This document shows, in pieces, positions 7,036 through 9,729 of a stretch of 30,810 bases of DNA. The stretch spans positions 1-30,810 of IMG/VR virus record IMGVR_UViG_3300027899_000047; one strand, written 5' to 3'. The first letter of the stretch is position 1, and each line of letters starts with the position of its first letter. The stretch comes from a virus. The translations under genes were made by a program, and so were the position numbers. The notes beneath the pieces are model-generated. The model saw only the letters and a list, made by a program, of their open reading frames with translations, had not been told where the DNA came from and ran no database searches.

Positions 7036-7491
7036 ATGAAAAAGATGATTTATTTAGATGATGTACGAACTCCTACTTCTCCTGACTGGGTAGTAGTTCG
7101 AGATTACGACGAGTTTGTTAATAAAGTGATGGAGATTGGTCTAGGAAATATCGATACGATCTCACTAGACCACGATCTAGGCGAGAGCGCAATGTCTGAA
7201 TATTTCAACAATGTCTCACCGAACTATCAACTTGATTACTCAAATATCCATGAAAAGACTGGATATGACTGTGCAAAATGGCTCGTTAACTATTGGTATG
7301 AGGTAAACCATCCTGATGAAGAGTCTCTAACTCCAGTTCGAGAAAGAGGACTAACTAGCTTTCCGATTGTCTATACACACTCAGCAAATCCAATCGGCAG
7401 TGCAAATATAATGGGATACGTTAATAACTTTTTAATGAATCACCATGTTCCGCAAACCTGTACTAGAGTAAGAATTGAACATACTGTATAA
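7036..7491 (+). CDS. cREC (cyclic-phosphate-processing receiver-like) domain protein
   Basis: A 151-residue single-domain protein. The N-terminus MIYLDDVRTP (D8-D9), DWVVVRDYDEF, then TISLDHDLGE at about residues 42-50 and GYDCAKWLV match the stand-alone receiver-like 'cREC' family. Comparative genomics has linked that family to processing cyclic nucleotide phosphates or RNA ends. The late HSANPIGSANIMGYVN stretch is also typical. It is the first gene of a three-gene plus-strand cluster with a small membrane protein and an SPFH protein. A TAGTACTATA box lies only 5 nt before the ATG. The biochemical role is not settled for the family. Confidence 0.72.
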   Translation: MKKMIYLDDVRTPTSPDWVVVRDYDEFVNKVMEIGLGNIDTISLDHDLGESAMSEYFNNVSPNYQLDYSNIHEKTGYDCAKWLVNYWYEVNHPDEESLTPVRERGLTSFPIVYTHSANPIGSANIMGYVNNFLMNHHVPQTCTRVRIEHTV

Positions 7492-7492
7492 T

Positions 7493-7720
7493 ATGAAACT
7501 AAACAACGATCCTATCTGGGATGCAATTTCAAATATCATAATTCGAGTAATTGTGTTGATGTTTGGAGTATATTTAATAACTCAACCATCTACAATCATT
7601 GCAATAATCGGATTTGTCTGGATTATGGTAAACCTGTACTCCTTTTCTAACTATGTGAATTCACTAATCTTTAAAAATAAAAAAAGTAAACCAAAACCAA
7701 AGCAAAATGACAAAACTTAA
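7493..7720 (+). CDS. Small two-helix membrane protein
   Basis: A 75-residue protein. I chose the ATG at 7493, 1 nt after the preceding stop, over an upstream in-frame TTG at 7475 that would overlap the cREC gene. Two hydrophobic helices (about residues 15-32 and 38-55) are followed by a highly basic Lys-rich tail. It overlaps the SPFH gene start by 14 nt, so the two are likely coupled and may work together at the membrane. No family recognised; a holin-like size is noted but unsupported otherwise. Confidence 0.55.
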   Translation: MKLNNDPIWDAISNIIIRVIVLMFGVYLITQPSTIIAIIGFVWIMVNLYSFSNYVNSLIFKNKKSKPKPKQNDKT

Positions 7721-8534
7721 AGTAATCGCAATTGCAGTAGTCCTCGGAGCATTCTTAATGTTTCTTCCAGCTTCATGTGAGCGTATCGAAGCAGGCCACG
7801 TAGGAATCAAAGTAAACAACACTGCATCCGAGAAAGGTGTTAGTAAAACAGAGTTAGTGACTGGCTGGCAGTTCTATCTTCCTTGGGTGAGCCAAGTATA
7901 TGAGTGGCCAACTTATGTCCAGCATAAGGAGTATGAAAAAATTGAAGTAACCATGAAGGGTGGAACAATTTTTACTGCGATTCCAGCAATCAACTACAGT
8001 GTAATTCCAGATTCAGTAAGTTCTATCTTTGAGACATTTCGAAGAGACTTACCAGAGATCGAAGATGGCTTCTTAAAGACCTGCATGCTTGAGGCATTCA
8101 GATCTACTGCAGGTGACTTCACACCTGACTCGTTGCTTATGAATCGACAACTTTTCGAAAATACTGTTCGAGGTAGATTTATCGATCAGGTTCGACCAAA
8201 GGGATTCCTACTAGCACAGTTGACCAGTAACTTAACACCGCCGCCTGCACTAGTTGAGTCAATTACCCTAAAGAATCGTGCTGTACAGAACGCACAAACT
8301 GAAGAGAATAAGGTTAAGATCTCAGTTGCCCAAGCAAATCAGAAGATTGCAGTAGCGCGAGGTGACTCTGCACGAATGGTAATTAGGGCACAGTCTGAAG
8401 CCAAAGCATATGAGTTACAGCAACGTAGTCTAACTGGTGAGATTCTTAAGAAGATGTACCTTGATAAGTGGGACGGTAAACTTCCAAGTGTGATGCCAGG
8501 TAATGGCTCAAATATGATGTATAATCTAAACTAA
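7707..8534 (+). CDS. SPFH/band-7 (prohibitin-like) lipoprotein
   Basis: A 275-residue SPFH (stomatin/prohibitin/flotillin/HflK-C) protein. The hydrophobic N-terminus ends LPASC with the Cys at residue 24, a plausible lipobox. The band-7 domain runs from about residue 27 (RIEAGHVGIKVNN) through TGWQFYLPWVSQVYEWPTYV to about residue 190. Then comes the long helical tail typical of prohibitins (ALVESITLKNRAVQNA... AQSEAKAYELQQRSL). Such proteins form membrane-associated rings or microdomains and regulate proteases. In a phage it may remodel the host membrane or interfere with host HflK/C-type control; this is inference. It is coupled to the upstream two-helix membrane protein. Confidence 0.85.
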   Translation: MTKLKVIAIAVVLGAFLMFLPASCERIEAGHVGIKVNNTASEKGVSKTELVTGWQFYLPWVSQVYEWPTYVQHKEYEKIEVTMKGGTIFTAIPAINYSVIPDSVSSIFETFRRDLPEIEDGFLKTCMLEAFRSTAGDFTPDSLLMNRQLFENTVRGRFIDQVRPKGFLLAQLTSNLTPPPALVESITLKNRAVQNAQTEENKVKISVAQANQKIAVARGDSARMVIRAQSEAKAYELQQRSLTGEILKKMYLDKWDGKLPSVMPGNGSNMMYNLN

Positions 8535-8606: not shown

Positions 8607-8680
8607 GGTTCCGTAGCTCAGTTGGATAGAGCAACAGCCTTCTAAGCTGTGGGTCACAGGTTCGAATCCTGTCGGGATCA
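8607..8680 (+). tRNA. tRNA-Arg (anticodon UCU)
   Basis: A complete 74-nt cloverleaf. The acceptor GGTTCCG pairs with CGGGATC (two G-U pairs), D-arm GCTC/GAGC, anticodon arm ACAGC-CTTCTAA-GCTGT with anticodon TCT, and T-arm ACAGG-TTCGAAT-CCTGT. The discriminator base is A and no 3' CCA is encoded. It reads AGA, a codon frequent in the late genes here. A 6-bp hairpin (TATCAG/CTGATA) lies just upstream. Confidence 0.95.
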
Positions 8681-8683
8681 CAA

Positions 8684-9063
8684 TGAGTAAGAGATACTCA
8701 GCAGACTTGTCAATGTCTCATTTAAACTTGATAGGGTATTGGACACGGACATCCTAATATCTACATAGAAGACTATCTCATGGGTAGAAACTGGATGTAG
8801 CTCTATAAAACGCCGGTCTCGTGGGAACAAAGGAGAGCGACACACCTCCTCCCAGTAGTGTTGACCGTTTTAATGAGGGATGCCTCGCAGGTTTTTAGAA
8901 AGTGGAAAACCGAAATAACTACTCACCTCAAATCTCAAGGTGGGGAAATAACCTGTACCCTTGAGAAACTCGTATTAAGTAAGCTGAGATAAGGTACGCT
9001 GCATTGAAGTTGAAAAAGATAAGCAGGTTAGTTCCGATATAAAGGGGTAATAGAATAAGGAAC
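8684..9063 (+). ncRNA. Candidate large structured non-coding RNA
   Basis: About 380 nt without a credible gene, packed with local helices. Pairings seen: 8684-8689/8695-8700; 8737-8743/8752-8759 (one bulge); 8761-8766/8795-8800 enclosing 8773-8777/8783-8787; 8807-8810 and 8814-8818 with 8863-8871, enclosing 8822-8825/8851-8854 and 8831-8835/8846-8850; 8875-8878/8883-8886; 8890-8895/8906-8911; 8933-8940/8959-8966; 8999-9002/9023-9026; and 9031-9035/9059-9063. GTACC at 8955-8959 could also pair with GGTAC at 8993-8997, suggesting a pseudoknot or switch. It sits between a tRNA and a tRNA-like element, as GOLLD and ROOL RNAs of phages often do, but the family cannot be assigned by eye. The transcribed strand is inferred from the flanking tRNAs. 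Confidence 0.6.
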
Positions 9064-9067
9064 AAAT

Positions 9068-9156
9068 GGTCAGGTTGTGTAATTGGTAACACGGTGGAGG
9101 TAGTCGCAGAGATGTTGACCCAAAACAAAATACAGGTTCGATCCCTGTCCTGACTA
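9068..9156 (+). tRNA. tRNA-like element without a recognisable anticodon arm
   Basis: The acceptor GGTCAGG (9068-9074) pairs with CCTGACT (9149-9155). The D-arm is GTGT-AATTGGTA-ACAC (9077-9092) and the T-arm ACAGG-TTCGATC-CCTGT (9132-9148). Between D- and T-arms lie 39 nt in which I find no 5-bp stem with a 7-nt loop having U at position 33. It is a degenerate tRNA, a tRNA interrupted in the anticodon region, or the tRNA-like 3' end of the preceding structured RNA. GGTAGTC (9099-9105) could alternatively pair with GACTACT (9152-9158). Confidence 0.55.
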
Positions 9157-9173: not shown

Positions 9174-9383
9174 ATGGAAAGTGAATTTCGTGTAAACGAT
9201 GACCACCGAAGAAATGAACTAAGTATTATTCCTGGTGGAGGAGTAGTCACAGTTGTCCACACTAATGGAAAGCGGTTCGTATACGATAAAATAAAAAATA
9301 TTCGAGCCTATTGCGAGCGTATTGGAGCTGATGAAAAGGTGTCTGAAATTTGGGTAGAAAATCAGTGTGTCTTCAAGCGATAA
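9174..9383 (+). CDS. Small conserved-looking phage protein, unknown function
   Basis: A 69-residue protein with a compact alpha/beta pattern: RRNELSIIPGGGVVTVVHTNGKR, then YDKIKNIRAYCERI and a final strand SEIWVENQ. No known domain is assigned. It begins 18 nt after the tRNA-like element and stops 7 nt before the DUF4326 ATG, so it likely shares a transcript with the accessory genes that follow. Confidence 0.55.
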   Translation: MESEFRVNDDHRRNELSIIPGGGVVTVVHTNGKRFVYDKIKNIRAYCERIGADEKVSEIWVENQCVFKR

Positions 9384-9390
9384 CTTGAGT

Positions 9391-9729
9391 ATGCAAGTAG
9401 TTCACTGCAAACGAGAACCTTATGATGTCTACATAGGCAGAGGTCAAGGATCAAAATGGGGAAATCCATTTACGCATATTGATGATAAGAAAACTATTGC
9501 AAAATATATTGTATCATCTAGAGATGAAGCCATTCAAAAGTATCGAGAATGGATCTTAACTGGTGAAGGTAAGTGGTTACTTGACTACTTACATGAACTA
9601 GATGGAAAGACTCTCGGATGCTGGTGCTGTCAAAAACCATCAGTGTATACTCAAGGAATGAAGATGATCTGTCATGGTGAAGTTCTTATGGAAATAATTT
9701 ATAATAAAAAGAAAAATGAAGAAATTTAA
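9391..9729 (+). CDS. DUF4326 domain protein
   Basis: A 112-residue single-domain protein. The ATG at 9391 is preferred to an in-frame GTG at 9367, which would overlap the previous gene; the homology begins right at this ATG. Diagnostic segments are VVHCKREPYDVYIGRGQGS, KWGNPF, EAIQKYREWI, LDGKTLGCWCC and CHGEVLMEI: the invariant 'G.GS.WGNPF', 'LGCWC' and 'CHGdvL' blocks of DUF4326. The family is widespread in phages; its conserved Cys/His residues suggest an enzyme acting on nucleotides, but no reaction is established that I know of. It overlaps the next gene by 14 nt. Confidence 0.85.
   Translation: MQVVHCKREPYDVYIGRGQGSKWGNPFTHIDDKKTIAKYIVSSRDEAIQKYREWILTGEGKWLLDYLHELDGKTLGCWCCQKPSVYTQGMKMICHGEVLMEIIYNKKKNEEI

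Follow-up and report, generated by a model that had tools for sequence, protein, structure and literature searches.

Two conserved structured RNA families in phage tRNA arrays

Positions 8684–9063 of a phage tRNA array are occupied by two adjoining conserved, structured RNA modules, which we refer to as family A and family B, rather than by one RNA. Positions are those of the window, i.e. the whole 30,810-nucleotide stretch of DNA analyzed (IMG/VR record IMGVR_UViG_3300027899_000047). The original prediction had proposed a single, highly structured 380-nt RNA in a gene-free region between a tRNA and a tRNA-like element. Both neighbors were confirmed, as a tRNA-Arg(UCU) gene directly upstream and a tRNA-like gene downstream (Table 1), and no conserved ORF was found in the region. 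The proposed single RNA, however, resolved into one module at 8682–8949 and another at 8950–9063, which we regard as separate because each also occurs without the other. Given their recurrence in more than 100 related viral DNA pieces and their covarying base pairs, we consider the two RNAs to be real genes. They are probably two stable non-coding RNAs of the phage tRNA array that are released by tRNA processing and play a structural role in trans.

Table 1. Features of the tRNA array in the window, with the evidence for each
Feature	Position	Strand	Basis
tRNA-Arg(UCU)	8607–8681	+	ARAGORN; Rfam 70.6 bits; directly upstream of family A
Family A RNA, ~268 nt	8682–8949	+	Covariance model R1, 196 bits (training set included the window); profile without the window, E 7e-35
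P1 hairpin, GAGTA-AGAGA-TACTC	8685–8699	+	Covariation alignment; nearly invariant
Pseudoknot 2: P2 8703–8706/8715–8718, loop helix 8709–8713/8728–8732	8703–8732	+	Swap test z 14.2
Pseudoknot 3: 8733–8736/8752–8755 and P3 8741–8748/8813–8819	8733–8819	+	Swap test z 7.2 (PK3), 14.6 (P3)
Pseudoknot 4: P4 8822–8826/8850–8854, inner helix 8832–8835/8846–8849, loop helix 8838–8843/8858–8863	8822–8863	+	Swap test z 8.3 (P4), 7.3–8.4 (PK4)
P5 hairpin, GAGG-GATG-CCTC	8875–8886	+	Covariation alignment
P6 stem, GGTTT/AAACC	8890–8911	+	Covariation alignment
P7 hairpin, CTCACC/GGTGGG, loop AATCTCAA	8922–8944	+	100% paired; double changes in 6/6 pairs
Family B RNA, ~114 nt	8950–9063	+	40-odd distinct relatives; hairpin covariation
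Family B outer stem	8950–8955/9024–9029	+	Pairs checked in window
Family B pseudoknot	8956–8962/9043–9049	+	Pairs checked in window
Family B hairpin	9031–9035/9059–9063	+	Covariation among relatives
tRNA-like gene	9068–9156	+	Rfam tRNA 41.4 bits; abnormal anticodon region

The window, 30.8 kb in length, is a fragment of a phage record and encodes a portal protein, a head-tail adaptor, an endolysin and a glucosyltransferase; the nearest relatives of its portal protein, at 33–39% identity, come from uncultured phages of 460–735 kb and from Prevotella Lak phages. Genes flanking the array (7036–7491, 7707–8534 and 9367–9729) encode cREC_REC (cyclic-phosphate processing receiver), SPFH/Band 7 and DUF4326 domains. 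The downstream tRNA-like gene has good acceptor, D and T arms and is devoid of a normal anticodon arm. A small ORF beginning CAATGAGT was considered within the region and rejected, as its ATG is not conserved among relatives (CAAAGAGT, CAACGAGT, CGGTGAGT).

With a profile built without the window, relatives of family A were found in 113 IMG/VR contigs (114 including the window) of up to 464 kb, and the covariance model R1 gave 95 matches; full-length copies number 80 distinct sequences, the window counted. The 18-mer CCGAAATAACTACTCACC recurs in 23 IMG/VR stretches, and at least 119 have the 5' hairpin GAGTAAGRGATACTCA. Pairwise identity within the family averages 65%, and the copy closest to that of the window shares 85% with it. 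When 24 records were searched in their entirety, 23 matched, 21 of them with one copy and two with two copies. The contigs L013 and L018 carry a second, diverged copy (2446–2645 in L018), which lacks the P1 hairpin and follows the first at a distance of about 500 nt. Members are compact, at about 215–270 nt, and share a self-consistent model of their own with 218 positions; the P3 loop of the window copy is enlarged by an insert of about 50 nt, and two further copies (L040 and L111) are of similar total length.

Beyond IMG/VR, blastn of family members against 50,697 phage records (INPHARED) returned tRNA or chance matches only, and hence no annotated record. Among the huge phages whose portal proteins are most similar (LR756500-504, LR745206 and Lak-B5), R1 detected nothing significant, and it had zero matches in 395 Bacteroidota genomes, a search that had no positive control. 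Among GTDB genomes, an exact 20-mer was found in one Bacteroidia MAG contig, which ends inside the element and is possibly a phage contig.

From 5' to 3', family A comprises the P1 hairpin, three consecutive H-type pseudoknots (2, 3 and 4), of which pseudoknot 3 contains the window-type insert of about 50 nt, and the stems P5, P6 and P7. All pairs of the model are present in the window sequence. Across 93 distinct alignment rows, standard pairs occupy 91.7% of the cells, compared with 74.5% when partners are shuffled and less than 50% when partners are slid by 1–3 columns, and double changes occur in 39 of the 47 pairs. The pseudoknot helices pair in 85–87% of cells, although they were absent from the model that built the alignment, and an independent swap test counted at least 40 distinct helices for each of pseudoknots 2, 3 and 4; both the shuffle and the swap controls leave the shared ancestry of the family members in place. 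Covariation thus supports the P1 hairpin, three pseudoknots and three further stems as the predicted fold of family A. In addition, the P1 loop (8691–8695) is complementary to 8932–8936, and nearly all members have AGAGAU opposite AUCUC of the P7 loop. This complementarity suggests a P1–P7 loop-loop contact, whose almost invariant sequence offers little variation to judge it by.

The description of the region as highly structured thus holds with respect to conserved, covarying structure, but not with respect to folding energy, which is ordinary (z -0.54; 32 of 100 shuffles folded as well). As the folding energy lends no support, the comparative evidence decides. The region does contain conserved pairings, but these differ from the two helices singled out in the original prediction. 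In the long-range stem proposed there at 8807–8871, the strands are complementary, but some of the bases belong to the covarying P3, and relatives do not preserve the pairing (z -1.9, a partial test in that the aligner assigns AAAACG of the window to insert columns). The proposed pseudoknot 8955–8959/8993–8997, while likewise complementary, lies within a family B insert that is hypervariable and missing from most relatives.

In family B, this hypervariable insert lies between the conserved pairings. The family B pattern AACCTGTACCCTTGA was located in 93 viral stretches, yielding 43 distinct candidates, of which at least L242 matches by chance; nearly all have AACCTG/CAGGTT, TACCCTT/AAGGGTA and the hairpin. 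Among 37 sequences the hairpin is built from 27 distinct helices, with a native score of 4.74 versus 3.14 (sd 0.13) after swapping. Families A and B are adjacent in the window, while A without B and B without A both occur elsewhere.

The placement of family A within tRNA arrays is precise. In 75 of the 80 copies, a count that combines ARAGORN calls, pattern matching and inspection of T arms, the 3' end of a tRNA or tRNA-like gene is flush with the family A 5' end, and the gap to the downstream tRNA is 0–3 nt in 52 of the 53 copies in which ARAGORN called one. The identity of the neighbors differs from copy to copy (Asp, Thr, Glu, Tyr, Gln, Met, Gly, Arg and Leu tRNAs, as well as tRNA-like genes). 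In the nearest relative of the window (G004), family A is located between tRNA-Tyr and a tRNA-like gene, with a GOLLD gene beside tRNA-Met; in another relative (G009), tmRNA, GOLLD, more than 20 tRNAs and family A are found within one 9-kb array. The GOLLD genes of these two relatives (306 and 256 bits) are separate from family A and about 6 kb away from it.

Based on this placement and on the precedents of GOLLD, ROOL and the T4 RNAs C and D, we suggest that A and B are co-transcribed with the tRNAs of the array and subsequently freed by tRNA-processing enzymes. The 5' end of family A would be generated by an RNase Z-type cut after the discriminator base of tRNA-Arg, and the 3' end of family B by an RNase P cut at the tRNA-like gene. 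In family A, the loops of the 5' and 3' hairpins would touch and clasp the three H-type pseudoknots into a compact, nuclease-resistant RNA, which may accumulate during infection and act in trans as a structural RNA, possibly through contacts with the host translation machinery or with other RNAs, or through self-assembly, following the example of GOLLD and ROOL. In favor of this scheme, GOLLD and the T4 RNAs C and D are found at sites of the same type, and no family A match turned up in the 395 Bacteroidota genomes, bearing in mind the missing positive control of that search. The five copies that have no tRNA directly upstream count against this scheme, as their 5' ends would have to be formed in another way.

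The flush position between tRNAs of the same strand and the absence of an ORF are also what one would expect of a cis-acting spacer that aids folding, processing or protection of the adjacent pre-tRNAs and is discarded once cut. We consider such a function unlikely, since there is usually one copy per array despite many tRNA junctions, the varied neighbors imply that no particular tRNA is served, and the fold of family A is much more elaborate than a spacer would need. The junction exactly at a tRNA 3' end, together with the differing neighbors, could alternatively reflect a mobile or intron-like element inserting at tRNA 3' ends. This origin appears very improbable, as there is neither an ORF nor an Rfam intron match, the flanking tRNAs are both complete, family A is mostly single copy per record, and its covariation is strong and purifying.

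Two further alternatives draw on known RNAs. A, B and the tRNA-like gene follow directly upon one another in the window, and three consecutive pseudoknots beside a tRNA-like fold recall tmRNA and the tobamovirus 3' end. All three elements might constitute a single functional transcript acting on the ribosome, with the tRNA-like gene as its 3' domain, akin to tmRNA or to plant-virus tRNA-like ends that have pseudoknots upstream. This arrangement is improbable, however, because in most relatives an ordinary tRNA, or a tRNA-like gene without B, comes after A, B is also found without A, and a true tmRNA coexists with family A in G009. A strongly diverged GOLLD or ROOL, as also considered in the original prediction, would share the type of location and the presence of pseudoknots, but we regard it as extremely unlikely: neither A and B in the window nor their relatives gave a covariance-model match, family A has a self-consistent 218-position model, and the separate GOLLD genes near family A in G004 and G009 already contradict it. 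Two stable RNAs processed from the tRNA array and acting in trans thus remain our preferred explanation.

Other RNAs recur in the same arrays. The tRNA-like gene of the window belongs to a family (with members in L137, L037, L054, L123 and others) that has a constant acceptor, AGTCAGG/CCTGACTA, a tRNA-Leu-type D arm and a T arm, and a hypervariable interior in place of the anticodon arm; pattern searches yielded 88 distinct sequences, a few of which may be composites, with up to seven per locus. These genes may represent natural tRNA scaffolds or decoys. A third RNA family, family C (GTGTTGTTCCCTTGAGAAAGGA ... ACAACACAGAGGACTTCTCATCCTC), has two hairpins, whose loops are complementary (TGAGAA/TTCTCA), and a variable insert (L020, L035, L039, L073, L088, L093, L098, L100, L105, L106, L109, L137, L142, L156 and L211). 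Outside the family, the best match of its model, at a borderline 24 bits (E 0.015 in 138 kb), lies inside T4 rnaD (L152, 1567–1636), and a kinship with rnaD is possible. More recurrent non-coding blocks (such as GAGCCAACCAAGCTA.., TTCGGTACCCATACCGCTGACGATGGGC.., CACAGAGTGGCGCAGGTTGATAC..) belong to none of these families (L059, L098, L054, L081, L039, L076, L105, L112 and L011), and in L245 (2936–4405) a phage tRNA array opens with adjoining tmRNA and GOLLD genes. Speculatively, and at rather long odds, the tRNA arrays of these large phages might encode a multi-component RNA system, in which A, B, C, GOLLD and many hypervariable tRNA-like RNAs are co-excised by tRNA processing and interact mutually or with the ribosome, the T4 RNAs C and D being small remnants of this system.

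With the two well-supported families described here, both absent from Rfam 15, the short list of ornate phage RNAs grows, and such RNAs can evidently coexist with GOLLD and tmRNA in one tRNA cluster. Their compact size, strong covariation and exact tRNA-defined ends make direct tests of structure and expression feasible. They thereby offer a route to the long-standing question of the role played in phage tRNA clusters by RNAs other than tRNAs, T4 RNAs C and D among them.

Regarding known RNA classes, 8684–9063 had no Rfam match at gathering or to E 10 beyond trivial chance ones, and the models suggested for checking in the original prediction (GOLLD, ROOL, HEARO, tmRNA and group I introns) found nothing there; group I/II intron and HEARO models had no match in the relatives either. 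tmRNA contains several consecutive pseudoknots, but family A, unlike tmRNA, is without tRNA-like ends of its own, and 8684–9063 gave no ARAGORN call for a tmRNA, with its tRNA-like ends and tag ORF, and no RF00023 match. As GOLLD and the genuine tmRNA of G009 are separate genes in the same arrays, family A is neither of them. The GOLLD model (RF02032, at ≥150 bits), which does pick up the GOLLD genes elsewhere in the two relatives, had no match at gathering or E ≤ 10 in the window or in relatives of its RNAs. Like families A and B, GOLLD is an ornate non-coding phage RNA adjoining tRNA genes; unlike them, it has a model of 416 positions, with no sequence or covariance-model similarity to A or B, is often longer than 800 nt and increases during lysis (PMC12286853). 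ROOL (RF03087, at ≥99.1 bits) had no match in the window, nor in 13 phage records searched without a positive control. It resembles family A as a pseudoknotted phage RNA near tRNA islands, differs from A and B in its model of 574 positions, and is reported to reach an abundance like that of 16S rRNA, yet to be non-essential in one strain (PMC12286853). The stable RNAs C and D of T4 (rnaC and rnaD; species 1 and 2), of 139 and 119 nt, lie directly against tRNA-Arg, where the T4 tRNA cluster ends. R1 matched nothing in the tRNA region of T4, even with E values up to 10. A search of non-subscription literature found no description of the A or B motifs. Absent from Rfam 15 and from annotated INPHARED records, families A and B appear, as far as can be tested, to be new, and the homologs and covariation support the original proposal of a new class of tRNA-adjacent ornate RNA. 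In kind they join what is already known: like T4 RNAs C and D, family A is located within a phage tRNA cluster, and like GOLLD and ROOL, it would belong among the ornate tRNA-adjacent RNAs of phages.
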